From a bacterium (lineage in GTDB: Bacteria > Bacillota > Clostridia > Lachnospirales > Lachnospiraceae): a stretch of DNA of 32,949 nucleotides. Location: positions 1 to 32,949 of the forward strand of contig JAUNJY010000046.1 in assembly GCA_030535455.1 (NCBI GenBank), read 5' to 3'. The first letter of the stretch is position 1. The number at the start of each line of letters is the position of its first letter. The notes below the pieces were generated by a model. That model was not told the origin of the DNA. It saw nothing but the letters and a program-made list of their open reading frames with translations, and did not search any database. Of the stretch, positions 3,047-32,949 are shown one piece after another. Both the position numbers and the translations under genes were made by a program.

Positions 3047-4117
3047 ATGGAAATGACATTGCGTTGGTATGGAAAACAGTTTGATTCAGTAACATTAGAG
3101 CAAATTCGTCAAATTCCTGGAGTTAAGGGGGTAATTACAACTCTTTATGATGTCCCAGTAGGAGAAGTATGGACGAGAGAGCGCATTCGTAGTATGAAAG
3201 AAGAGGTTGAAAATGCAGGACTTCATGTGGCAGGCATTGAGAGTGTAAATGTACATGATGCAATTAAGGCAGCCACATCAGAGAGAGACTTTTACATAGA
3301 GAATTACATTAAGACATTAGAGAATTTGGGAAAAGAGGATATTCATCTAGTATGCTATAATTTTATGCCAGTATTTGATTGGACACGGACAGAGCTTGCT
3401 AGAAAAAGACCAGATGGTTCGACAGTCCTTGCTTATACCAAAGAAGCAGTAGACAGAATTAATCCAGAAGAGATGTTTCAGACCATTGGTTCGGATACCA
3501 ATGGATTTGTAATGCCCGGATGGGAACCGGAGCGAATGGAGAAGGTGAAGGAACTATTTGAGCTATATAAGGGTATTGATGAGGAGCAGCTTTTTGAAAA
3601 TCTAAAGTATTTTCTTACAAAGATTATGGATGTATGCAATCAGTATGATATTAAGATGGCCATTCACCCGGATGATCCAGCATGGAGCGTATTTGGTCTT
3701 CCTAGGATTATCATTAATAAGGAGAATATCCTGCGTATGATGAACATGGTGGATGATGTACATAATGGGGTTACGTTCTGCTCAGGCTCTTATGGAACTA
3801 ACTTAGAAAATGACCTTCCAGATATGATTAGAAGTTTAAAGGGCAGAATTCATTTTGCACATGTTAGAAACCTTAAGTTCAATAGTCCGGATGATTTTGA
3901 GGAGTCTGCGCATTTATCCAGTGATGGCAGTTTTGATATGTATGCGATTATGAAGGCATTATATGAGATTGGGTTTGAAGGGCCAATTCGTCCGGACCAT
4001 GGAAGAATGATCTGGGGTGAAAAGGCAATGCCAGGGTATGGACTATATGACCGTGCATTAGGAGCAGCATATCTGAATGGTATTTGGGAAGCAATTGAGA
4101 AGGGGGAGAAAAAATGA
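3047..4117 (+). CDS. uxuA: Mannonate dehydratase UxuA
   Basis: This 356-residue protein has the normal length and start (MEMTLRWYG) of mannonate dehydratase, a TIM-barrel enzyme that removes water from D-mannonate to give 2-keto-3-deoxygluconate in hexuronate catabolism. The expected metal-binding set is visible: His207 (AIHPDDP), Cys245 (VTFCSGSYG), His272 (IHFAHVRN) and Asp317 (RPDHGR). AGGAGGAG at 3030-3037 lies upstream of the ATG. Its last four bases (ATGA) overlap the start of uxuB, so the two are translationally coupled. It is the first gene of an operon of four that also encodes a GH115 alpha-glucuronidase, so glucuronate released from xylan is the likely input. Confidence 0.95.
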   Translation: MEMTLRWYGKQFDSVTLEQIRQIPGVKGVITTLYDVPVGEVWTRERIRSMKEEVENAGLHVAGIESVNVHDAIKAATSERDFYIENYIKTLENLGKEDIHLVCYNFMPVFDWTRTELARKRPDGSTVLAYTKEAVDRINPEEMFQTIGSDTNGFVMPGWEPERMEKVKELFELYKGIDEEQLFENLKYFLTKIMDVCNQYDIKMAIHPDDPAWSVFGLPRIIINKENILRMMNMVDDVHNGVTFCSGSYGTNLENDLPDMIRSLKGRIHFAHVRNLKFNSPDDFEESAHLSSDGSFDMYAIMKALYEIGFEGPIRPDHGRMIWGEKAMPGYGLYDRALGAAYLNGIWEAIEKGEKK

Positions 4118-5724
4118 GACTGACAGAGGAAGGTCTTTTTGATAGAGAGGCATGGGAGCAGGCAGGGTATCAGCTGCCACAGTATGACCGTAAAAAGGTA
4201 CGGCAACTGACCGTAAAAGAGCCGGAATGGATTCATTTTGGAGCAGGCAATATCTTTCGAGCATTTCAAGCCAATGTAGTACAGACTCTTTTAAATAAGG
4301 GAAGCTATGATAAAGGGCTGATTGTTGCAGAAGGTTTTGATTATGAAATTATCGAAAAAAGTAATCGCCCTCATGATGACTATAGCATATTAGTGACTCT
4401 TAAGGCTGATGGCTCGGTAGAAAAGACTGTGGTTGGAAGTATTGTGGAATCGTTGACTGTTGATAGTACGTGTAAAAAGGATTTTGATCGTTTGGTGGAC
4501 ATCTTTTGTTCGGACTCTCTTAAGATGGTAAGTTTTACGATTACAGAGAAAGGCTATAAACTGGAAAATGAAAAAGGTGAACTTAATAAAGCGGTTGTAA
4601 AAGATATGGAAAATGGACCGGAAAAGGCCGAAAGCTATATGGGAAAAGTGACTGCCCTTATGTATCAGCGTTATTTGACAGGGGAAAAACCAGTTGCATT
4701 AGTGAGTATGGACAATTGTTCTCATAATGGAGATAAATTACATGAGGCAGTACTAACGTTTGCGAGAAACTGGGAAGATAAGAATAAGGTAAAGAAAGGA
4801 TTTACTGGTTATTTAGAAGATAAACAAAAAGTATCATTTCCTTGGACAATGATTGATAAGATTACACCAAGACCAGATCCAAATGTGGAGGAGCTGCTAA
4901 GAAAGGATGGAATTGAACAAGTAGCACCAATCGTGACATCCAAACATACCTATGTGGCGCCATTTGTCAATGCGGAGGAAAGCCAGTATCTTGTCATGGA
5001 AGATTGGTTTCTCAATGGCAGGATTCCATTAGAAGCAGCAGGGATTATCTACACAGATAGAAAGACCGTGGATCAGGTAGAGAAGATGAAAGTATGTACT
5101 TGCTTAAATCCATTACATACAGCACTTGCAGTATTTGGATGTCTGTTGGGGTATACCAGAATTTGTGACGAAATGAAGGATGATGACCTGGTAAGGCTGA
5201 TTGAGACGGTTGGATACAAGGAGGGACTTCCAGTTGTCGTGGATCCGAAGATTATGAATCCGAAAGAGTTTATTGATCAAGTGATGACGGTACGTTTACC
5301 AAATCCATTTATGCCAGATACCCCACAGAGGATTGCAACCGATACATCACAGAAGCTAGCAATTCGCTATGGTGAGACTATGAAGGCATATGTGAGAACA
5401 CGTGGAAATTGTAAAGAATTGATTGGAATACCACTAGTCATAGCAGGTTGGCTGCGTTATTTAATGGGGGTGGATGATGAAGGCAATACATTTACATTAA
5501 GTCCAGATCCATTGCTTGAAACGCTTTATAAAATGGTCGGAGACATTAAGATTGGAGAAGCGATTGATGTTCATGGAAAGATAGAAAAGATACTAAAAAA
5601 TGACGCAATCTTTGGAGTTGATTTGTATAAGGTGGGGCTTGGAGAAAAGATTGAGTACTTATTTGCCAAGATGATTGAAAAAGAGGGAGCTGTGAGAGAG
5701 ACATTACATAATCAGTTTAAGTAG
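4114..5724 (+). CDS. uxuB: Fructuronate reductase (D-mannonate oxidoreductase) UxuB
   Basis: This 536-residue protein belongs to the polyol-specific long-chain dehydrogenase family. The N-terminal nucleotide-binding segment is visible as HFGAGNIFRAF (residues 41-51), and the signature Lys-x5-Asn-x2-His appears in KVCTCLNPLH. It should reduce D-fructuronate to D-mannonate with NADH, feeding UxuA. The start overlaps the uxuA stop by 4 bases and the gene directly precedes the GH115 gene. A mannitol or altronate dehydrogenase would look similar, but pairing with uxuA makes UxuB the best call. No isomerase (UxaC) is encoded in this window. Confidence 0.92.
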   Translation: MRLTEEGLFDREAWEQAGYQLPQYDRKKVRQLTVKEPEWIHFGAGNIFRAFQANVVQTLLNKGSYDKGLIVAEGFDYEIIEKSNRPHDDYSILVTLKADGSVEKTVVGSIVESLTVDSTCKKDFDRLVDIFCSDSLKMVSFTITEKGYKLENEKGELNKAVVKDMENGPEKAESYMGKVTALMYQRYLTGEKPVALVSMDNCSHNGDKLHEAVLTFARNWEDKNKVKKGFTGYLEDKQKVSFPWTMIDKITPRPDPNVEELLRKDGIEQVAPIVTSKHTYVAPFVNAEESQYLVMEDWFLNGRIPLEAAGIIYTDRKTVDQVEKMKVCTCLNPLHTALAVFGCLLGYTRICDEMKDDDLVRLIETVGYKEGLPVVVDPKIMNPKEFIDQVMTVRLPNPFMPDTPQRIATDTSQKLAIRYGETMKAYVRTRGNCKELIGIPLVIAGWLRYLMGVDDEGNTFTLSPDPLLETLYKMVGDIKIGEAIDVHGKIEKILKNDAIFGVDLYKVGLGEKIEYLFAKMIEKEGAVRETLHNQFK

Positions 5725-5767
5725 TGAAAAAACATAAAATAAGGGGAAAATGTGCGAGGAGAAGAGA

Positions 5768-7777
5768 ATGAAGGTTGTTATTAATCAAAATACAAAGATT
5801 ATAGCGGAATTTGAAAGTGAGCCGGTAAATAGGGCAATTACATCACTTGCAAGAGACATAAAAAAAGCCTGTTTGATAACAGAAAAAGAAGGCGCCAATA
5901 TCTATGTACAAAAGAGGGAAATGGCTTCTGAGTGTTTTGAACTGAGCATACAAGAAAATAGTATTTACATATATGCAGGCGATGAGTTAGGAGCCATCTA
6001 TGGCATTTATGAAATTAGTAGAAAAGGATTGGGAATAGAGAACTTCTGGTTTTGGAATGATCAGAAGATTGTACCAAAAGAAGAGTATGTTATGACCGAG
6101 GAAGACGGATATAGTTCAAAACCATTTAAAGTAAAATACCGTGGCTGGTTTGTAAATGATGAAACTTTGTTGCTCGGATGGAGTGTGGATAGAAGCCAGG
6201 AAAAGGTCTGGGAAATGGTTTTTGAGGCGCTTCTTCGATGTGGTGGCAATATGACAATTCCAGGAACCGATTTAAATTCTAAGAGGTATCGAAAGACGGC
6301 TGCAAGGATGGGATTATGGATTACCCATCATCATGCAGAACCACTTGGAGCTGAAATGTTTCTTCGGGCCTATCCAAATCTCAAACCGTCCTATTTGGAA
6401 CAGAAGGATAAATTCCATAAGCTCTGGAAAGAAGGAGTAATCGCACAGAAGAACTGTAATGTAATCTGGAACTTGGGCTTTCGAGGACAGGGAGATTATC
6501 CATTTTGGGAAATCGATCCACAATTTAATACGATGGAGTCAAGAGGAGAGCTGATGAGTAAGATCATCAAGGAACAATATGATATTGTAAAGGGAGAGGT
6601 GCCGGATGCAGTCTGCTGCACCAATCTCTACGGGGAGACCATGGAACTATATCGTGAGGGGCATTTAAAACTTCCAGACGATGTAATTAAGATCTGGGCA
6701 GACAACGGATTTGGTAAAATGGTTACAAGGCGTCAGGGAAATCATAATCCAAGGATTCCAGCATTACCTGACAGTAAGGATACCGGAAGACATGGCATCT
6801 ATTATCATGTATCGTTCTATGACTTACAGGCAGCAAATCATATTACCATGCTTCCAAGTTCACCAGAGTTTGTAGCCAGGGAATTAGAAGAGGTATTTGC
6901 ACATTATGGAGACCAGTACTGGCTGATTAATAGTTCTAGCGTAAAGCCTCATGTATATTTTCTAGATCTGATCTCGAAGTTATGGAAAGATGGAACTGCA
7001 GACGTCGAGAAGCATCGTAATGACTACATAGCAGATTACTATGGTCTAGAAAATGTGAAAAGTATTGCACAGTGCTTTAAGAAGTATCCAGAATATGCAA
7101 TCGCATATGGAGAGCATGAAGATGATCATGCTGGCGAGCAATTTGCAAATCATGTCATACGAATTCTCGTTTCCCAGTTTATGAGAGATGATTCAAGTCG
7201 TGCAAAGGAACTTCTATGGGCAACGGAGGCGGAAACACTGAAAGAACAGATCCTTTGGTATCAGAAGTTATGTAAAAAAGCATCGGAGGGCTATAAGGAA
7301 TACCGCAATTTATGTGAAAAGGTAGCAATTGAGTTAAAAGAGGAGAAGAAATCGTTGTTTGAGGACTCCCTTTTGCTTCAGGTAAAGATTTATGAACACT
7401 CATTTACCGGAGCATTTTATGGATGTAAGGGAATGTTATTGGCTATGGATAAAAGATACCAGGAAGCATTCTATGAGATTGGCAAAGCAAAAGAGGAATT
7501 TGTCAAAGGAAATGAAGCAATGCGTGCACGTGAGCATGGAAAATGGCATAACTTTTATGAAAATGAGTGCCAGGTGGATGTAAAGCAGACAGCCTGGGTA
7601 TTAGGCGGATTAATGGCTTATATCCGTAATCTTGGAGATGGCCCACATTTTTATCAGTGGCAGAGAGAATTTCAGGATACGAAAGAAAATCAGCGTATTA
7701 TGTTATTGCTAAATACAACAAATCATTTACAAGATGAGGAACTGTTTGCATTAATGAAGGAAGCATTGGAGAAGTAG
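5768..7777 (+). CDS. GH115 family alpha-glucuronidase, intracellular
   Basis: The 669-residue product matches glycoside hydrolase family 115, which removes (4-O-methyl)glucuronic acid side chains from xylan and xylo-oligosaccharides. Landmarks are an N-terminal alpha/beta domain (ELGAIYGIYEIS, residues 73-84), YRGWFVNDE (124-132), THHHAEPLG (186-194) and GFRGQGDYPFW (237-247). It lacks a signal peptide, so it should act on imported oligosaccharides. It is shorter than many members (often 800 or more residues) and seems to lack their C-terminal accessory domain. I prefer the ATG at 5768, six bases after AGGAG (5757-5761), over the in-frame ATG at 5750, whose AAGGGG is only three bases away. 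Its position after uxuAB gives a coherent glucuronoxylan pathway. Confidence 0.88.
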   Translation: MKVVINQNTKIIAEFESEPVNRAITSLARDIKKACLITEKEGANIYVQKREMASECFELSIQENSIYIYAGDELGAIYGIYEISRKGLGIENFWFWNDQKIVPKEEYVMTEEDGYSSKPFKVKYRGWFVNDETLLLGWSVDRSQEKVWEMVFEALLRCGGNMTIPGTDLNSKRYRKTAARMGLWITHHHAEPLGAEMFLRAYPNLKPSYLEQKDKFHKLWKEGVIAQKNCNVIWNLGFRGQGDYPFWEIDPQFNTMESRGELMSKIIKEQYDIVKGEVPDAVCCTNLYGETMELYREGHLKLPDDVIKIWADNGFGKMVTRRQGNHNPRIPALPDSKDTGRHGIYYHVSFYDLQAANHITMLPSSPEFVARELEEVFAHYGDQYWLINSSSVKPHVYFLDLISKLWKDGTADVEKHRNDYIADYYGLENVKSIAQCFKKYPEYAIAYGEHEDDHAGEQFANHVIRILVSQFMRDDSSRAKELLWATEAETLKEQILWYQKLCKKASEGYKEYRNLCEKVAIELKEEKKSLFEDSLLLQVKIYEHSFTGAFYGCKGMLLAMDKRYQEAFYEIGKAKEEFVKGNEAMRAREHGKWHNFYENECQVDVKQTAWVLGGLMAYIRNLGDGPHFYQWQREFQDTKENQRIMLLLNTTNHLQDEELFALMKEALEK

Positions 7778-24972: not shown

Positions 24973-25003
24973 TCAGACAATTAAATATGAAGTAAGAATA
25001 AAG

Positions 25004-25040
25004 AGGCGTAGTTCTATTATTAGAACTGTGCCTTTTTTTT
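25004..25040 (+). terminator. Rho-independent terminator after the pectate lyase gene
   Basis: AGGCGTAGTTCT (25004-25015) pairs with AGAACTGTGCCT (25022-25033) with two G-U pairs, followed by eight T's. Confidence 0.88.
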
Positions 25041-25216: not shown

Positions 25217-25313
25217 GTCGAATAAAGTCGATGTGTACCTTTAAGAAGTTATGGGTCAAAAGGAATTAGGAGACGAAAAAATATTACGAAAAGTGAGAAA
25301 AGGAAGGAATATT

Positions 25314-25772
25314 ATGTTTTTAATTTTATTTTTTCTATGGATGATTTTTAATGGAAAAGTAACATTGGAAATTGTGATGTTTGGTGTCGTTATTTCAGCT
25401 GCAATCGAGTACTTTATGTATCGATTTATGGATTATTCACCAAATATTACAATTCGTTTTTGTAAAAACATGTTACGCATTCTGTATTATGGTGCTGTAT
25501 TGGTCAAGGAAGTAGTAAAGGCCAACTTACAGGTAATCTCATTTATCTTCAGTACGAAGTATGAGGTGGAACCGCAAATCATTCATTTTAAGTCCAGTCT
25601 TAAAAGTGATGCAGCAAAAGTTACATTGGCCAATTCTATTACATTGACGCCAGGTACGATAACCGTTTCGCAAGAAGGGGATACGTATACTGTTTTGTGT
25701 CTAGATAAAGAATTTGCCGAAGGAATCGAAGATTCCGAATTTGTTCATTTGCTAGAAGAGATGGAGGAATAA
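25314..25772 (+). CDS. Mrp/Mbh antiporter-module subunit E (MrpE/MnhE family)
   Basis: The 152-residue membrane protein has two N-terminal helices, then a soluble domain with LANSITLTPGTITV, the hallmark of MrpE (MbhA in hydrogenase numbering). It is a structural subunit of the ion-translocating membrane arm. The frame extends upstream to an ATG at 25251, but AGGAAGG (25301-25307) six bases before 25314 marks the start as MFLILFFLW. It is the first gene of a run whose spacing is 1 base, 2 bases, then overlaps, so the whole set is one operon. Confidence 0.9.
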   Translation: MFLILFFLWMIFNGKVTLEIVMFGVVISAAIEYFMYRFMDYSPNITIRFCKNMLRILYYGAVLVKEVVKANLQVISFIFSTKYEVEPQIIHFKSSLKSDAAKVTLANSITLTPGTITVSQEGDTYTVLCLDKEFAEGIEDSEFVHLLEEMEE

Positions 25773-25773
25773 G

Positions 25774-26082
25774 ATGAGCACAGTTCAATATGCAATGGAG
25801 TATTTATTAACAGGCAGTATCGTGGTGCTCGGCATCTTAATCTGTTTGTGTTTGGTACGAGCAATCAAGGGACCTAGAATTGCCGACCGAATTGTTGCAG
25901 TTAATATGATTGGCACATTGACCATCATCATTATCTGTATCTTAGCAGTTTATCTAAAGGAAAGTTATTTGGTAGACGTTGCTATTGTTTATGCGATGAT
26001 CAGTTTCTTAGCAGTCATTGTATTATGCAAAGTTTACACAGGAGTTTATTTAGAGAATAAGAAGAAAGAGGAGGACAGATAG
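25774..26082 (+). CDS. Mrp/Mbh antiporter-module subunit F (MrpF/MnhF family)
   Basis: A 102-residue protein with three membrane helices and the MrpF pattern RAIKGPRIADRIVAVNMIGT. It is a small structural subunit of the antiporter module (MbhB position). The start lies one base after the subunit E stop, and its ribosome site is inside the end of that gene. Confidence 0.92.
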   Translation: MSTVQYAMEYLLTGSIVVLGILICLCLVRAIKGPRIADRIVAVNMIGTLTIIIICILAVYLKESYLVDVAIVYAMISFLAVIVLCKVYTGVYLENKKKEEDR

Positions 26083-26084
26083 AC

Positions 26085-26426
26085 ATGGCTGAATGGATCC
26101 GTTTTGTCATCGCTGCCATCTTCATCGTTGGCGGTGTGAGTATTGCTGGAATTGCCACGTTTGGTGTCTTTCGTTTCAAGAACGTATTAAACCGAATGCA
26201 TGCGGCAGCGTTACTCGATACCCTTGCCATCTTACTGGCATTAGTGGGACTTATGTTTCTTGGAGATGTATTTAGTACAACAACAGAAACAGTATTTTTT
26301 ATTCTTAAATTAGTGTTAGTCATCGTGTTCTTATGGTTTGCCAGTCCGGTAGCCAGCCATTTAATCAGCAGATTAGAAGTGACCACGAATGAAAAGCTGG
26401 AAGAAGAATGTGAGGTAAAAGAATAA
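26085..26426 (+). CDS. Mrp/Mbh antiporter-module subunit G (MrpG/MnhG family)
   Basis: A 113-residue, three-helix protein with FGVFRFKNVLNRMHAAALLDTL, the diagnostic MrpG (MbhC) motif. GAGGAGG at 26068-26073 precedes it. Its TAA shares a base with the ATG of the next gene (TAATG), giving strong translational coupling. Confidence 0.92.
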   Translation: MAEWIRFVIAAIFIVGGVSIAGIATFGVFRFKNVLNRMHAAALLDTLAILLALVGLMFLGDVFSTTTETVFFILKLVLVIVFLWFASPVASHLISRLEVTTNEKLEEECEVKE

Positions 26427-26695
26427 TGGATATGTTTAAGATTATTTTACTTCTTTTCTTAGTAGGCTGTGCGATCAGTGTTAGCTTGACTAAGAATTTA
26501 TTAACATCAATCATTATCTATATGTCTTATAGTGTGGTGATGTCAATTATCTGGATTATTTTAGAATCACCGGATCTTGCAATTACCGAAGCAGCAGTTG
26601 GGGCTGGTGTAACAAGTATCCTGTTCTTTGTAACCTTGAAGAAAATTCATGCAATCAAAGAGGAGAAAGACAATGTCGAAACTGAGAACGAATAG
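26426..26695 (+). CDS. MbhD-like subunit (DUF4040 family)
   Basis: An 89-residue protein with about three helices and the motif SPDLAITEAAVGAGVTSILFF, typical of the DUF4040/MbhD domain. In Mrp antiporters this domain is part of the large MrpA C-terminal region; in Mbh hydrogenases it is a separate subunit, as here. The gene overlaps subunit G by one base and the next gene by 23 bases. Confidence 0.87.
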   Translation: MDMFKIILLLFLVGCAISVSLTKNLLTSIIIYMSYSVVMSIIWIILESPDLAITEAAVGAGVTSILFFVTLKKIHAIKEEKDNVETENE

Positions 26696-27656
26696 TACAA
26701 ACAGTAAATGGTGCCGTTTTGTGAATTGGGTAAATGGCACAGTAGAAGAAAGTAAAAATGAAGAAATAATAGAGGAGCCTGACGAACAGAAACAAGAAGT
26801 CGCAGCCACTCTAGAAGAAAGACAATCCCTAGTTGAAAAGCTTGGAAACTTGGAGGGTGAAACTGCACTGAATCAAAAATTAGATCAGTTCCAAGAGAAG
26901 GGCATGCAGCTCTTTCACCGTTTAAATAAAGTGATGTCCGTTATGATTTGCTTAGTTGTTGTGGGAGTGTTATTATACACAGTTTCCTTTATGCCGGAAT
27001 TCGGCGATGCAGCAAGTCCGGTAAATAACGAAGTATCTGAGCGATACATTACACAAGGTATGACAGAGACTGGGGCAGTCAATATCGTAACCGGTATGAT
27101 TCTTGATTACCGTGCATTTGATACATTTGGTGAATCAAATGTGTTATTTGTTGCAGCATGTGCAGTGTTGGTCCTATTACGTAGTGACAAAAAGAAAGAC
27201 GCTAAGAAGAGCGAAGAAAACGATAGAAAATTTGAACCAAAGAATGATGTGATCTTACAAAGAGTGGCAACATGCCTATTCCCACCGATTATGATTTTTG
27301 GTATCTACCTTATTTTAAATGGTCATCTTTCACCAGGTGGTGGTTTCTCCGGTGGAGCAATCATGGGTGCAGGATTAATCCTTTATGTAAGTGCGTTTGG
27401 CTTTAAGAAGACAGAACGTTTCTTTACGATGAAGACATTTAAGATGGTAACATTCCTAGCGTTATTATTCTATGGATTGAGCAAGAGTTATTCCTTCTTT
27501 ACAGGAGCAAACCATCTTCATTCCATCATTTCACCAGGTACACCTGGAAGAATTCTAAGCGGTGGCTTACTTCTGCCACTTAATATTTGCGTAGGTCTTG
27601 TAGTTGCATGTACGATGTACGGATTTTATGCATTATTCAGAAAAGGAGAAATTTAG
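26673..27656 (+). CDS. Fused MbhE-MnhB subunit of the antiporter module
   Basis: This 327-residue protein joins two subunits that are separate in Mbh complexes. Residues about 86-170 carry the MbhE / MrpA-C-terminal motif NIVTGMILDYRAFDTFGE (137-154). Residues about 190-325 carry the MnhB/MbhF motif HLSPGGGFSGG (218-228) and four helices. Before them is an unusual 85-residue hydrophilic, Glu-rich N-terminal extension with helical or coiled character (EESKNEEIIEEPDEQKQE). GAGGAG precedes the ATG at 26673, which lies inside the end of the MbhD-like gene; an in-frame ATG at 26649 lacks a ribosome site. It should form part of the Na+/H+-conducting path. Confidence 0.85.
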   Translation: MSKLRTNSTNSKWCRFVNWVNGTVEESKNEEIIEEPDEQKQEVAATLEERQSLVEKLGNLEGETALNQKLDQFQEKGMQLFHRLNKVMSVMICLVVVGVLLYTVSFMPEFGDAASPVNNEVSERYITQGMTETGAVNIVTGMILDYRAFDTFGESNVLFVAACAVLVLLRSDKKKDAKKSEENDRKFEPKNDVILQRVATCLFPPIMIFGIYLILNGHLSPGGGFSGGAIMGAGLILYVSAFGFKKTERFFTMKTFKMVTFLALLFYGLSKSYSFFTGANHLHSIISPGTPGRILSGGLLLPLNICVGLVVACTMYGFYALFRKGEI

Positions 27657-27658
27657 TT

Positions 27659-28030
27659 ATGGCAACTCTCTTTACGAATCTAGAAGAAGTAGTGGCCGTA
27701 ATCCTATTTGGTATCGGATTATGTACGTTATTGCTTCAGAAAAATTTAATTAAGAAAATCATCGGTTTTGATATTATGGATACCGCAATATATCTCTTCC
27801 TGACGGCGCAAGGCTACATTGATGGGCGTAAGCCTCCGATCGTTGTAGATGGAGTGCAATCGGTGGAGGCTTATATCAATCCAATCCCAAGCGGGCTTGT
27901 ACTCACTGGTATCGTAGTATCGGTAAGTGTTAGTGCAGTAATGCTTGCTCTAACGATTCGTCTTTATCGTAAATATCATACACTTGAATTAGATGAGATT
28001 ATTGAGTTATCGAAGAAGGAGGAAAATTAG
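27659..28030 (+). CDS. MrpC/NuoK-like antiporter-module subunit
   Basis: A 123-residue, three-helix protein of the NuoK/MnhC/MbhG family: LFGIGLCTLLLQKNLIKKIIGFDIM at the start and PIPSGLVLTGIVVSVSVSAVMLAL later. It belongs in the membrane arm beside the antiporter subunits. AAGGAG (27643-27648) points to the ATG at 27659. The frame is open upstream, but that part reads out of frame with the MnhB coding end and is not real. Confidence 0.92.
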   Translation: MATLFTNLEEVVAVILFGIGLCTLLLQKNLIKKIIGFDIMDTAIYLFLTAQGYIDGRKPPIVVDGVQSVEAYINPIPSGLVLTGIVVSVSVSAVMLALTIRLYRKYHTLELDEIIELSKKEEN

Positions 28031-28031
28031 A

Positions 28032-29525
28032 GTGGAGTTTATTAGAAATTTTCCGTTCTTTAGTATCGTGCTTTGTATGATCTCAGCAACGATTAGTTCG
28101 GTTCTTAGTGGTAAAAATGCAAAACGTCTATCCATGGCAGTTGTTACAGCTGTTGGAATTATGTCCGCATTTGTTTTATTTTATGTTGTTCATACGGGGG
28201 AAAGTTTTGTTTACTTAATGGGGCATCATCCTGCACCATGGGGAAATGAGCTTCGTGTCGGAGTTTTAGAAGGTTTAATGGCATTCTTCTTTTCTGTCAT
28301 CATGATGTTGTCTTTACTTGGTGGTATGAAACAGATCTTTAAGGATGTATCTGAAAGAAAATTAAATCTTTACTTTATCATGATCGATTTATTATTAGCG
28401 TCATTACTTGCGTTAATCTATACAAACGATTTATTTAATGCCTACGTATTTATCGAAATCAATACGCTTGCAGCTTGTGGTCTGATCATGAGCAAGCAAA
28501 ATGGACGTACTTTAGTCGGAACGATGAAATACATGGTAATGAGTCTTGTTGGTTCGGGCTTAATCTTATTTGGCCTATCCATCCTTTACGGTGTGACAGG
28601 ACATTTATTAATGCCAAACATCAAAGAAGCAGTACTTGCTTTAGCTGAAAGCGGCCAGTATCGTGTACCGGTACTTGTAACTATCGCTATGGTTACTGTG
28701 GGACTTGCAATCAAGTCAGCACTTTATCCATTCCACAACTGGCTTCCGGATACGTATAGTTACGGAACAGCAACATCCAGCGCATTATTATCCAGCCTTG
28801 TTTCGAAAAGTTATATCTTCTTATTGATTAAGATCGTATATCGTGTCGTAGGATTTGATGTGATTGCTGGAAGCGGGATTTTAAATATCTTCTTCGTATT
28901 TGGTCTTGCAGGAATGCTTATGGGATCCATTCGTGCCTTAGCACAAAATGATATCCGTAAGATGATTGCGTATTCATCAGTTGCACAGATTGGTTACATC
29001 TATATGGGAATCGGTCTTGGTACGAAAGTCGGCATGTATGCGGCAATCTTCCATATCATGTCACATGCTGCATCCAAAGCATTATTGTTTATCTCTGCAA
29101 ATGGCTTGTCTTTAGCAAGTGGAAATGGAAAACAGTTTGCGGATCTTCGTGGAGCAGGTTACCGTAATAAGTTAGCCGGTTTTGGTTTCATGGTTGGATC
29201 CATCTCTATGGTAGGTATTCCACTGTTTGCTGGATTTATCAGTAAGCTTAATTTTGCATTAGGTGCATTTGAGTCTCCATCAAAGATGATGCCAACATTA
29301 ATTGTTCTTGCAATCAGTACGGTTCTTAATGCCGGATACTTTATTCGAGCAGTCATCGTACTATATACACCACAGTCATCTGAGAACCAGAAGGAAAACC
29401 TTTACAAGAGAGATTACTCATTCATCATTTCCATTGTATGCTTTGTAATTCTTAACTTTGTATTAGGCATGTTCTCTGGACCAATTATGGAAGCAATTAA
29501 AAACGGCATTGCTATGTTTGCGTAG
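28032..29525 (+). CDS. Proton-conducting antiporter subunit 1 (NuoN/MrpD/MbhH-like)
   Basis: The 497-residue protein has about 14 helices and the complex I antiporter fold. The key charged residues are present: Glu142 in the TM5 segment (AYVFIEINTL) and Lys228 in the TM7 segment (LAIKSALYPFHNWLPD), plus NDIRKMIAYSSVAQIGYI farther on. By gene order it matches MbhH. The start is the GTG at 28032, nine bases after AGGAGG (28017-28022) and one base after the previous stop. Upstream in-frame codons lie within subunit C and are not used. Confidence 0.9.
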   Translation: MEFIRNFPFFSIVLCMISATISSVLSGKNAKRLSMAVVTAVGIMSAFVLFYVVHTGESFVYLMGHHPAPWGNELRVGVLEGLMAFFFSVIMMLSLLGGMKQIFKDVSERKLNLYFIMIDLLLASLLALIYTNDLFNAYVFIEINTLAACGLIMSKQNGRTLVGTMKYMVMSLVGSGLILFGLSILYGVTGHLLMPNIKEAVLALAESGQYRVPVLVTIAMVTVGLAIKSALYPFHNWLPDTYSYGTATSSALLSSLVSKSYIFLLIKIVYRVVGFDVIAGSGILNIFFVFGLAGMLMGSIRALAQNDIRKMIAYSSVAQIGYIYMGIGLGTKVGMYAAIFHIMSHAASKALLFISANGLSLASGNGKQFADLRGAGYRNKLAGFGFMVGSISMVGIPLFAGFISKLNFALGAFESPSKMMPTLIVLAISTVLNAGYFIRAVIVLYTPQSSENQKENLYKRDYSFIISIVCFVILNFVLGMFSGPIMEAIKNGIAMFA

Positions 29526-29548
29526 ACAATAGAGGAAAGGTGAAAATA

Positions 29549-31027
29549 ATGAACCGTAATTTACTATTACTGCTTCCAATGATCTTACCGATTCTTGCAG
29601 GTCTCGTAGTCTTTTTCGCAAAGCCGATGAAGAACAGAAAGACAAGAAATTGGTTTGTTGGCAGCTTTTTAATTCTTAATCTGGCAATCACCACAGTTTT
29701 ATTATGTGGGCCAGCAGTTCAATTAGAATTATTTGATTTAATGAAGGGGATTCCAGTACTATTCAAGCTTGATGGAGTAGGCAGGATCTATACTTCCCTT
29801 CTTGCGATTATGTGGACGTTGTCTGGATTCTTTGCATTTGAATATATGAAGCATGAAGGAAACGAACATCGCTATTTTGGATTTTTCCTAGTAGCATTAG
29901 GTGCACTTAACGGTGTGGCTTATGCAGGAAATCTTGTAACGTTTTATCTTTGTTATGAAACAATGACATTAGTGTCAATGCCAATGGTATTACACAGTTT
30001 AAATAAAGAAGCAATCAGTGCAGGTTTAAAATATCTGTTTTATTCCTTCTGTGGTGCTTCCTTAGGATTACTAGGTATTTTCTATATGAATCAATATACG
30101 ACTACCATTGAATTTATGGGAGGCGGAACGCTTGACCTTGTAAAACTTGCAGGACATGAAAGCTTCTTCCTTGTAGTTGTATTTTTATCCATTATTGGAT
30201 TTGGTGCAAAAGCAGGTATGTTTCCACTTCACGGGTGGCTGCCAACTGCCCATCCGGTAGCTCCGGCACCAGCCAGTGCAGTATTATCCGGTGTTATCGT
30301 AAAAGCAGGTGTTGTCGGCATAATCCGTGTGGTATTTTATATCGTCGGTCCAGATTTCTTACGTGGAACCTGGGTGCAGACAGCTTGGATGAGCCTTGCC
30401 TTATTGACCGTATTTATGGGGTCAATGCTTGCTTATAAAGAACAAGTATTAAAGAAACGTCTTGCGTACTCCACAGTGAGCCAGGTTTCCTATATTTTAT
30501 TTGGACTTAGCTTATTAAATGCAGATGGAGCACTAGGTGGAATGGAACATATCGTATTCCACTCATTCATTAAGAATGGCCTGTTCCTTGTGGCAGGTGC
30601 AATCATCTATAAGACTGGTAAGACAAAAGTTAGTGAACTTAGAGGAATTGGAAAAGAGATGCCGGTTACTATGTGGTGCTATACCATTGTTTCCTTAGCA
30701 TTAATCGGGATTCCTCCAACTTGCGGATTTATCAGCAAATGGTATCTTGCAGTAGGTTCCCTTCAATCAGGAATTCCATTCTTTAGCTGGTTTGGTCCTA
30801 TCGTGCTTCTTGTGAGTGCATTATTAACAGCAGGTTATTTATTGCCAATTTCAATTAATGGCTTTTTCCCAGGTGCTGATTATGATTACTCCAAATTAAA
30901 GAAATTAGAGCCAAACAAGTTTATGACGATCCCATTGATCATTTTAGCAACTGGATCTGTCTTACTTGGAATGTTTCCAAATGCATTTGCAAGCTTTATC
31001 CAATCAATTATTGAAACAATTATGTAG
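29549..31027 (+). CDS. Proton-conducting antiporter subunit 2 (NuoM/MbhH-like)
   Basis: The 492-residue, about 14-helix protein has Glu137 (LCYETMTL), Lys221 (GFGAKAGMFPLHGW) and Lys252 (VIVKAGVVGI), the charged residues along the proton path of complex I-type antiporter subunits. KKRLAYSTVSQVSYILFG is the usual TM10-11 signature. AAAGGTGA (29536-29543) five bases upstream favours the ATG at 29549 over the GTG at 29540. It aligns residue for residue with the next protein over at least the first 252 positions, so the two genes are tandem paralogues. Confidence 0.91.
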   Translation: MNRNLLLLLPMILPILAGLVVFFAKPMKNRKTRNWFVGSFLILNLAITTVLLCGPAVQLELFDLMKGIPVLFKLDGVGRIYTSLLAIMWTLSGFFAFEYMKHEGNEHRYFGFFLVALGALNGVAYAGNLVTFYLCYETMTLVSMPMVLHSLNKEAISAGLKYLFYSFCGASLGLLGIFYMNQYTTTIEFMGGGTLDLVKLAGHESFFLVVVFLSIIGFGAKAGMFPLHGWLPTAHPVAPAPASAVLSGVIVKAGVVGIIRVVFYIVGPDFLRGTWVQTAWMSLALLTVFMGSMLAYKEQVLKKRLAYSTVSQVSYILFGLSLLNADGALGGMEHIVFHSFIKNGLFLVAGAIIYKTGKTKVSELRGIGKEMPVTMWCYTIVSLALIGIPPTCGFISKWYLAVGSLQSGIPFFSWFGPIVLLVSALLTAGYLLPISINGFFPGADYDYSKLKKLEPNKFMTIPLIILATGSVLLGMFPNAFASFIQSIIETIM

Positions 31028-31042
31028 GAAAGAAGGGATATT

Positions 31043-32521
31043 TTGACCAGTCCGATTTTATTACTGGTACCGATCTTATTTCCACTTCTAGGGGCGGCAA
31101 TCTTGCCATTGTTCCATTTTGAATCAAGAAATAAGAGACAGCTTTATGTTGGTACGATTGTGGTTCTTAATACAATTTTCACTTACCTGTTATTATTTTT
31201 CGGGCCAAGTGAAGGAATCACGTTAATGAAGCTTACAAACGACTTTTCGATTGGACTAAGAATCGATGGGTTATCAAAAGTATTTGCAGGGCTAGTAGCG
31301 GCACTTTGGCCATTTGCTACATTATTTGCCTTTGAATATATGACACATGAAAAACGAGAAAATTACTTCTTCAGTTTTTATACAGGAACCTTTGGTGTAA
31401 CGATTGGTATCGCATTTTCTGCTAACATTGCAACGTTATATCTGTTCTATGAATTATTAACATTAATCACATTGCCATTGGTAATGCATTCTATGAATGA
31501 AAAGTCCATCAAAGCAGGTATTACGTATATCGTATACTCTGTTGGCGGTGCGGCTATGGCATTTATCGGAATTGTAATTCTTATGAAGTTTGGAACTCCT
31601 TCTGACTTTGTATTTGGCGGAGTATTAGATGCAGCAGCAATTGGAGATAAGAGTAATCTTGTATTACTTGGCTATGTCTTTGCATTCTTTGGATTTGGTG
31701 TAAAAACAGCAGTATTCCCATTTTATAAATGGCTTCCAATGGCGGGTGTTGCTCCGACTCCGGTTACTGCCTTACTTCATGCAGTAGCAGTAGTTAAATC
31801 AGGTGCATTTGCAATTATGAGGGTGACGTATTTCTGTTTTGGTGCAGATTTCTTACGTAACACTTGGGCGCAGTACCTTGTTATGACTGCTGTGTTAATT
31901 ACGATCCTATTTGGATCTTCCATGGCGTTAAAAGAGCAGCATCTTAAGAGAAGACTTGCATATTCAACTATCAGTAACTTATCTTATATCTTATTTGGTA
32001 TCGTACTGATGACGCCGGCAGGACTTGTAGGCGGCCTTACGCATATGATCTTCCACGGAATTATGAAGATTGCTTTATTCTTCTGTGTCGGTGCAGTCAT
32101 GTTTAAGACGCACAAAGAATATGTGTATGAGATTGAAGGCTTTGGTCGTAAGATGCCATTCGTATTCTCCATCTTTACCTTTGCAGGCATCGCTTTAGTA
32201 GGTGTTCCACCGTTTACTGGGTTCATCAGTAAATGGAACCTTGCATTTGCGGCAGTGGAAACAGGAAAAGTACTTCCGGCAGTGGGAGTGTTCGTATTAT
32301 TAATTTCCGCATTACTTACTGCAATGTATTTACTTACGATTGCAGTAAGAGCATTCTTCCCTGCTAAGGGATTTGATGAAAGCAAACTAGCACATGTAGA
32401 AGATCCAAGATGGCTTATGAAATTGCCTTTAGCTGTATTTGCAGTGGCAATTGTTATTTTTGGTATTCATAGTGCACCATTGGTTGAATTCTTTACGAAG
32501 ATTGCCAATGGCTTATTATAG
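31043..32521 (+). CDS. Proton-conducting antiporter subunit 3 (NuoM/MbhH-like)
   Basis: A 492-residue paralogue of the upstream protein with the same key positions: Glu137 (LFYELLTL), Lys221 (GFGVKTAVFPFYKW) and Lys252 (VVKSGAFAIMR), then KRRLAYSTISNLSYILFG. The start is a TTG (31043), five bases after AAGGG; no ATG lies near. It should be another ion-translocating unit in the membrane arm of the same complex. Confidence 0.9.
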   Translation: MTSPILLLVPILFPLLGAAILPLFHFESRNKRQLYVGTIVVLNTIFTYLLLFFGPSEGITLMKLTNDFSIGLRIDGLSKVFAGLVAALWPFATLFAFEYMTHEKRENYFFSFYTGTFGVTIGIAFSANIATLYLFYELLTLITLPLVMHSMNEKSIKAGITYIVYSVGGAAMAFIGIVILMKFGTPSDFVFGGVLDAAAIGDKSNLVLLGYVFAFFGFGVKTAVFPFYKWLPMAGVAPTPVTALLHAVAVVKSGAFAIMRVTYFCFGADFLRNTWAQYLVMTAVLITILFGSSMALKEQHLKRRLAYSTISNLSYILFGIVLMTPAGLVGGLTHMIFHGIMKIALFFCVGAVMFKTHKEYVYEIEGFGRKMPFVFSIFTFAGIALVGVPPFTGFISKWNLAFAAVETGKVLPAVGVFVLLISALLTAMYLLTIAVRAFFPAKGFDESKLAHVEDPRWLMKLPLAVFAVAIVIFGIHSAPLVEFFTKIANGLL

Positions 32522-32531
32522 GGAGGTAAAC

Positions 32532-32949
32532 ATGGAAGGTAATTTTATTTTATTATTTCTTGTTCTATTCCCTATGGCTGGCGCATTAGCAAGTTATCTC
32601 ATTGGGAGAAAGAACAAAGAAGTAAGAAATTATTTTGCAGCAGCAGTTGCAATCATTGAATTCATTGTAATGGCATATCTGTTTGTTACATTTAAGGAGA
32701 CAACGGAATTTGTCTGGAAGGAATTCTGCGGAAGAGGAATGTATCTTGAATTAGACGGATTCCGAGTACTTTATATATTAATTGCAGGACTTATGTGGAT
32801 GATGACCACAATCTTTTCCAAGGAATATTTCGCGCATTACCGTAACCGAAACCGTTACTATCTATTTACACTGTTTACTCTTGGGGCAACAGTCGGCGTA
32901 TTTTTATCAGCAGATTTATTTACTACATTTATCTTCTTTGAAATTATGT
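32532..32949 (+). CDS. Proton-conducting antiporter subunit 4, N-terminal part (cut by window end)
   Basis: The gene starts at the ATG at 32532, just after GGGAGG, ten bases beyond the previous stop, and runs off the right edge after 139 codons. The visible helices and LELDGFRVLYILIAGLMWM followed by FTTFIFFEIM resemble the two preceding proteins, with Glu at position 137 again. It is a fourth NuoL/M-type subunit. Whether it is NuoL-like with a C-terminal lateral helix cannot be seen. Confidence 0.85.
   Translation, partial: MEGNFILLFLVLFPMAGALASYLIGRKNKEVRNYFAAAVAIIEFIVMAYLFVTFKETTEFVWKEFCGRGMYLELDGFRVLYILIAGLMWMMTTIFSKEYFAHYRNRNRYYLFTLFTLGATVGVFLSADLFTTFIFFEIM

Follow-up and report, generated by a model that had tools for sequence, protein, structure and literature searches.

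The 32,949-base window analysed here, which is the entire contig G000:C70 of a Lachnospiraceae genome (GenBank GCA_030535455.1, JAUNJY010000046.1), carries from position 25314 to its right end an operon of closely packed genes on one strand in the order E-F-G-MbhD-(MbhE-MnhB)-C-D1-D2-D3-L4, as assigned from open reading frames (ORFs) and Pfam and NCBIfam profiles. The gene set and its order are conserved among relatives, the redox families PF01058 and PF00146 are missing from its own and nearly all carrier genomes, the catalytic residues of the four antiporter-like subunits (D1, D2, D3 and L4) are kept, and two of these subunits go back to a duplication. It is fairly probable that the operon encodes a stand-alone, redox-free cation/proton exchanger of the Mrp/MBH type, electrogenic, with four antiporter-like proton paths and up to 4 H+ moved per Na+. 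Such a machine would probably amount to the pumping arm of complex I with an extra module and without the electron-handling part, exchanging several H+ per Na+.

All ten genes lie on the forward strand. The MnhE/MbhA-type subunit E (25314..25772; PF01899, E 4e-30) has Pro113 at the place of MrpE Pro114; the ORF caller starts it at 25251, and the ATG at 25314 has a purine-rich stretch before it. There follow the MrpF/MbhB-type subunit F (25774..26082; PF04066, E 2e-15), the MnhG/MbhC-type subunit G (26085..26426; PF03334, E 2e-18), MbhD, the counterpart of the C-terminal part of MrpA and here a gene of its own as in MBH (26426..26695; PF13244, E 2e-19), the MbhE-MnhB fusion (26649..27656; PF20501 and PF04039) and an MnhC/NuoK-type subunit C with an MBH-like site (27656..28030; PF00420, E 2e-21). 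The antiporter-like subunits begin with D1 (28032..29525; PF00361, Proton_antipo_M, E 4e-53), whose GTG start at 28032 is preceded by a ribosome-binding-like aaggagg site, and continue with D2 (29549..31027; Proton_antipo_M, E 6e-56), its sister and tandem duplicate D3 (31043..32521; Proton_antipo_M, E 2e-51), which has a TTG start at 31043 with a ribosome-binding-like site, and the 5' part of L4 (32532..32949), the first 418 bases of that gene. Residues are numbered from 25314 in E, from 27656 in C and from 29552 in D2. A terminator-like hairpin at 25000..25037 on the forward strand (one found, against 0.1 expected in shuffles) closes an upstream beta-helix gene and sets it apart from the operon.

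The fourth antiporter gene could be read across a contig join. Its 140-residue stub in the window gave no match in the Pfam profile scan and NDH_I_M as the best NCBIfam model (E 2.4e-13). The last 55 bases of the window are also the first 55 bases of contig G000:C18 of the same genome, and the L4 frame runs on into that contig to a stop at C18:1599, giving a protein of 653 residues from the ATG at 32532, including a C-terminal lateral-helix region. D2, D3 and L4 stand together on a single unbroken contig in the nearest named relative, an Anaerosporobacter metagenome-assembled genome (locus L056), whose D3 counterpart is 92% identical. The antiporter count is exactly four, because L4 is followed by a terminator-like hairpin (C18:1725-1749) and then, from C18:1944, by a gene that is not antiporter-like. 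The first-pass annotation had described at least four antiporter genes in an MBH-like order with the H position multiplied; the ORFs, the profiles and the join to C18 bear out this gene order, the gene families agree with the MBH likeness, and all four antiporters are conserved with their proton-path residues. L4 ends after its own lateral-helix region and is not fused to an MbhD/E-like part, and the predicted fold of its L056 orthologue aligns with MrpA and NuoL into the lateral helix, with a helix predicted at 559-597. Lateral-helix length found no support as a sign of a four-subunit arm, since the span is not clearly longer in four- than in three-antiporter relatives (medians 121, with 86/92 scored, and 112.5, with 6/9 scored; 84 in the window).

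No redox gene was found among the ORFs and Pfam matches downstream of L4 on C18, where the next genes encode a protein without a Pfam match, an AAA_5-like protein just below the family cut-off and a DUF2357 protein. Genome-wide profile searches of the window's genome detected neither PF01058 (NuoB/hydrogenase small subunit) nor PF00146 (NuoH/MbhM anchor), and, with this genome at a rated completeness of 93.56% and contamination of 7.74%, the relatives weigh more. Among the other genomes with the operon, entire or in pieces cut by contig ends, PF01058 was absent from 22 of 23 (present in 1/23) and PF00146 from 23 of 24 (present in 1/24); at a completeness of at least 90% and a contamination of at most 5%, they were present in 1/21 and 1/22, respectively. 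Both single matches belong to one genome, G010, on contig C12, and its operon lies on contig C65. The same searches were positive in 11 of 14 control genomes. The genome-wide absence concerns these two families, the hydrogenase large-subunit families not having been searched for genome-wide. Locally, an ORF scan found no redox-type ORF near the operon in 81 of the 82 exact ten-gene loci, the flanks of which reach at least 3 kb on both sides in 54 loci and at least 5 kb on both sides in none; the exception, L068, has NuoE/NuoF-like ORFs near its ten-gene operon. The scan is able to detect NiFe-hydrogenase or Nuo genes, which it found beside other clusters (L163, L165 and L147). The C18 genes and the two genome searches thus reject a redox arm downstream or elsewhere in the genome, and the searches speak against the NADH/quinone redox arm of complex I as well. 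The ferredoxin- or hydrogen-linked pump proposed in the first-pass annotation, with redox subunits expected downstream, is not supported by these results.

Among 121 loci that gave any Mrp-type match, 82 repeat the ten-gene order exactly, which excludes chance. These are 81 distinct loci, L040 and L127 being the same contig counted twice, and one further locus (L054) had no Mrp-type match at all. Most of the 121 loci were found with D3 as the query and are therefore biased towards the four-antiporter form. A less biased sample of 20 stretches around MbhE-MnhB profile matches contained the exact ten genes in 5, another four-antiporter order in 1 (L166), a three-antiporter form in 9, of which one has a broken D1, a three-antiporter cluster of another kind, accompanied by a weak NuoI-like ORF, in 1 (L167), hydrogenase-linked clusters in 2 (L163 and L165) and clusters cut by a contig end in 2. 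In a family sample of 120 genomes, the window's own included, D3 had matches at E <=1e-3 in 36, and the operon or contig-cut pieces of it were present in 17 of the 119 others, judged by D3 matches better than 1e-120 together with gene orders. At least 592 relatives of D3 occur among named genome contigs; 80 were retained, 52 of them labelled Lachnospiraceae, and MbhE-MnhB profile matches were found in 57 of 391 genomes of the class. Twelve further stretches from phylum-wide matches yielded the ten-gene order twice, in L172 (G861:C9) and in L173 (G575:C6; cut in L4), both from genomes listed only as belonging to the phylum of the window's genome, which suggests transfer or an older origin. Around 85 complete operons there was no recurrent flanking family that would explain the operon; the commonest families occurred at 19 loci (upstream), 13 (mostly upstream), 12 (upstream) and 12, and we take the first to be trmB-like, the second ABC-transporter-like and the upstream one at 12 loci thioredoxin-like, by their sequences, the other family at 12 loci being unassigned.

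Phylogenetic trees of 97 and 70 rows, with 6 MrpD and 4 MrpA sequences sampled, were used to place the four antiporters. Each of the four positions forms one clade in both trees. D2 and D3 are sisters (support 100/100) and adjoin the one middle antiporter that the three-antiporter form has (93/91), while D1 groups with the first antiporter of that form (100/99) and L4 with its last (97/94); support is weak for how the large groups branch at depth (39/80 at the root as drawn in the 70-row tree). Judged from these relationships, a stand-alone ancestor with three antiporters gave rise to D2 and D3 by tandem duplication of its middle one. The sampled MrpD and MrpA sequences form clades separate from all four antiporters, and approximately unbiased (AU) tests on the 70 rows rejected each of the joinings D1 with MrpD, L4 with MrpA, D3 with MrpA and the middle antiporters with MrpD (p-AU 6e-10 to 1.3e-5), the D3-MrpA constraint being a harsh test that also parts D3 from D2. 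The tests rule out a canonical MrpA/MrpD identity of the subunits; descent of D2 from an L4 relative over its full length was likewise rejected (p-AU 1.5e-5). The grouping with MrpA and MrpD that had been put forward as an alternative therefore did not emerge, and the idea of an Mrp-type variant to which it belonged stands in the part that concerns the missing redox subunits and, taken literally, does not hold in the part that concerns ancestry.

Other clusters met in this survey differ in their number of antiporters. Four-antiporter clusters with MbhE and MnhB split were seen at L166 (G253:C1), L177 (G771:C1) and L182 (G855:C252); L166, the only one of the three placed in the tree, has a third antiporter that branches outside all other middle antiporters, which suggests a separate gain. 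Given these three further arrangements, extra antiporter subunits may have been gained more than once. Two Mrp-type clusters, L181 (G734:C38:46000-65900) and L176 (G863:C14:38000-57900), each line up seven antiporter-like genes head to tail, with a DUF2889 protein encoded behind them and no redox-type match in 20 kb; the first antiporter gene of L181 is a 322-aa ORF near the stretch end. Their antiporter genes outnumber those of any cluster described in the cited passages of the literature. At L180 (G844:C9:105000-124900) a three-antiporter cluster lies beside five antiporter-only genes in the opposite direction, which have no small subunits of their own in the stretch. NuoG/NuoF/NuoE-like genes stand divergently beside a three-antiporter cluster with a fused MbhE-MnhB at L183 (G612:C1:1-19900), and weak NuoF- and HyfA-like ORFs occur at L174 and L179. 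In Sinorhizobium meliloti (pSymA, NZ_CP021819.1; L147), the first antiporter of a plasmid-borne nuo cluster falls in the clade of stand-alone middle antiporters and carries the histidine motif of transmembrane helix 8 (TM8).

The proton-path residues are kept throughout the orthologue sets, which were limited to sequences with 70% or more of full length, with the window included and the duplicated locus (L040/L127) counting twice. TM5 Glu, TM7 Lys, TM8 Lys and TM12 Lys do not vary in D1 (93/93), D2 (99/99) or L4 (92/92), and in D3 the first two and the last are found in 102/102 and TM8 Lys in 98/102. D3 also has the MrpA/NuoL-type TM8 histidine (H246) in 102/102, and so do the middle antiporters of the three-antiporter reference set (6/6), whereas D2 has Ser at this position in all 10 loci compared. 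This histidine belongs to a motif that is described as conserved among MrpA-like polypeptides and not among MrpD-like ones (PMC4938563), and a histidine switch is described in MrpA (PMC9568556). Over residues 213-256, D2 is 67.5% identical to L4 and 49.6% to D3, and elsewhere 40.4% identical to D3 and 26.5% to L4 (40 of 83 complete loci plus the window). The L4-like patch corresponds to the TM7-TM8 segment, about 40 residues long (window 30188-30307, D2 residues about 213-252), and fits gene conversion from L4 or, because E. coli HyfB scores 59% to D2 there, convergence; conversion inside the operon could possibly have removed the TM8 histidine of D2.

In the cation module, MbhD Glu55 (89/89), a residue of the MBH-type ion site, aligns with the Glu of the hydrogenase-linked clusters L163 and L165; the cation exit path residues MbhE Asp158, Glu162 and MnhB Phe233 are found in 92/92, MrpE Pro113 in 88/88 and MrpG Pro88 in 86/88, and MrpF keeps Asp38. 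Of the Mrp cation-path set, MrpA-C Glu/Asp, MrpB Phe41 and MrpE Pro114 are retained, MbhD Glu55 at the MBH and not the Niallia MrpA position, and MrpF Asp35 and the MrpC histidines are replaced. Three sites depart from Bacillus-type Mrp. At the place of Bacillus-type MrpF Asp35 there is Asn (Asn44) in 88/88, and Asp35 is reported as essential in A. flavithermus, where a change to Leu inactivated the complex, although only mild effects were expected of conservative changes to E or N in B. subtilis (PMC7419157). Subunit C lacks both cation-binding histidines of MrpC and has an invariant Asp42 instead (93/93); in MBH, too, Asp is said to replace one His of the MrpC pair (PMC7419157). In Niallia MrpA the residue aligned with MbhD Glu55 is a Gln, and the Glu lies four residues further. 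On account of the MrpF Asn, the missing MrpC histidines and the shifted MbhD Glu55, Bacillus-type Na+ handling cannot be assumed. Nor does a riboswitch back control by Na+: only 3 tRNAs exceeded the Rfam gathering scores in 14 sources, and with no non-tRNA match there, riboswitch control of the operon was rejected.

From these features we infer how the subunits are ordered in the arm, that all four assemble into one complex, and which ion is moved, in which direction and at what stoichiometry. The membrane arm would have the order D1-D2-D3-L4 and be joined to the small-subunit cation module (E, F, G, MbhD, MbhE-MnhB and C). Protons would move inward with the proton-motive force through several or all four antiporter subunits, and a charge relay between neighbouring subunits would power the exit of one cation, most probably Na+, by way of the small-subunit module. 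The exchange would be electrogenic, with up to 4 H+ entering per Na+ expelled if every path is kept and all four subunits assemble; Na+ could then be expelled even at a low proton-motive force because of this gearing. For the two-antiporter Mrp, 2 H+ per Na+ have been modelled, the true stoichiometry being described as unknown (PMC9568556). The fourth subunit would have arisen by tandem duplication of the middle subunit in a three-antiporter ancestor, a form that persists in other Clostridia. More tentatively, and at somewhat less than even confidence, we propose an exchanger with the size of a complex I arm and N-M-M'-L-like subunits working in series at 4 H+ per Na+, of a type common in Lachnospiraceae, in which the duplication, together with a TM7-TM8 patch taken from another subunit, changed the gear ratio.

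The setting of the carriers suits an exchanger: Rnf/Nqr D/E-type genes are present in 20/24, own genome included. The window's genome, 7.74% contaminated, has ATP-synthase c-type matches at G000:C53:36543-36731, G000:C125:31188-31376 and G000:C122:44105-44284. Two of these three sequences were read and differ, one having a Gln...Glu-Thr-Thr pattern, which we take to be a Na+-type signature, and the other not.

The proposed series arrangement competes with one in which D2 and D3 are alternative middle subunits, MrpD-like and MrpA-like at TM8, one of them built in at a time to give two interchangeable three-antiporter complexes with three proton paths each. The Ser/His difference at the TM8 switch, the L4-like patch of D2 and a lateral-helix span not clearly longer than in three-antiporter relatives would agree with such an exchange, but the 82 exact ten-gene loci all have the two genes together and in an unchanging order, which argues for equal stoichiometry, and both retain their proton-path residues, so that we regard it as unlikely. 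Less likely again is the same architecture serving as an antiporter of K+ or another cation for the control of pH and volume, with no export of Na+. MrpF Asn44 and the MBH-like C site, both unlike Bacillus Mrp, could be read in this way; against it stand the c subunit with the presumed Na+-type signature and the Rnf/Nqr-type genes of the carriers, though these may pump either ion. K+-transporting Mrp/Pha members are known (PMC5703873), but the same Na+ path has been proposed for MBH, which also has Asp for His in subunit C (PMC7419157). Least probable by far, and largely refuted, is a redox-driven pump of the MBH, MBS or complex I type with the genes of its catalytic arm at another place in the genome: the small subunits have an MBH-like layout, with MbhD and MbhE split from the antiporter and the MBH-type Asp in C, G010 has both redox families on another contig and L068 has its NuoE/NuoF-like ORFs, but neither family occurs in the window's genome and each occurs in a single other carrier.

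Compared with known systems, the operon would work like Mrp, is laid out like MBH and, by analogy, has an antiporter set like a complex I arm with extra pumps. With Mrp (CPA3, groups 1-3) it shares the joint encoding of subunits E, F, G, B, C and antiporter-type subunits, the lack of a redox arm and most cation-path residues, but canonical Mrp has two antiporter-like subunits, one of which (MrpA) is fused to the MbhD/E part, whereas here there are four and none is fused. The operon can sensibly be regarded as an Mrp-like antiporter variant, broadly understood; we have not filed it as canonical Mrp because the MrpA fusion is missing and the antiporters lie outside the Mrp clades, although the subunit set and the lack of redox genes agree. 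Extra antiporter genes in redox-free clusters have precedents, among them additional mrpD genes in clusters of cyanobacteria and Microbacterium, as noted in PMC5703873, and, as noted in PMC7784846, an Mrp locus of Ca. Nitrospira alkalitolerans that has two additional antiporter-like genes. The stand-alone three-antiporter clusters of other Clostridia share the order, the small subunits and related D1, middle and L4 positions, with no Nuo or hydrogenase genes adjoining; that on the Peptoclostridium acidaminophilum plasmid EAL2_808p has none annotated in its 21-kb stretch. They differ in having one middle antiporter in place of D2 and D3, and separate MbhE and MnhB genes in place of the fusion.

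Pyrococcus MBH and MBS have the same membrane-arm gene order A-H, a separate MbhD and MbhE and the MBH-type residue in subunit C, and the lateral-helix region of L4 probably resembles that of MbsH'; unlike the operon, they have one or two antiporters and a hydrogenase or sulfane reductase arm, and here MbhE is fused to the MnhB/MbhF part. The 2M complex I of Nitrospira, the rhizobial green complex I and the five-pump complex I of Ca. Manganitrophaceae resemble the operon in their extra ion-pumping subunits, which are described as gained by duplication or exchange (PMC9040806; PMC7419157), and for rhizobia the likeness extends to the S. meliloti antiporter in the middle-antiporter clade. These forms, however, carry a redox arm, as do the complexes with four or five antiporter-like subunits described in PMC7419157 and PMC9040806, and the lateral-helix insertion reported for 2M complex I has no counterpart seen here. 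We found no description of the present four-antiporter operon in the open-licence PubMed Central (PMC) literature, a search that most subscription papers lie outside.

The way in which neighbouring antiporter-like subunits are coupled is open for complex I and its relatives, and so is whether each of them moves one proton per turnover. Redox-free homologues with three and four antiporters, beside Mrp with two, would allow the H+/cation ratio to be measured against subunit number without electron transfer. The operon likely represents a Na+/H+ gearing device in anaerobes, most of the carriers tested also having the Rnf/Nqr-type genes.

Two further gene groups lie outside the operon. Just downstream of it, at C18 3003-6639 (locus L006), the AAA_5-like ATPase adjoins the DUF2357 protein, a pair that we presume resembles those of McrBC type. 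Within the window, UxuA, mannitol-dehydrogenase-type and GH115 genes stand in a row at 3047-7777, consistent with the use of glucuronoxylan.

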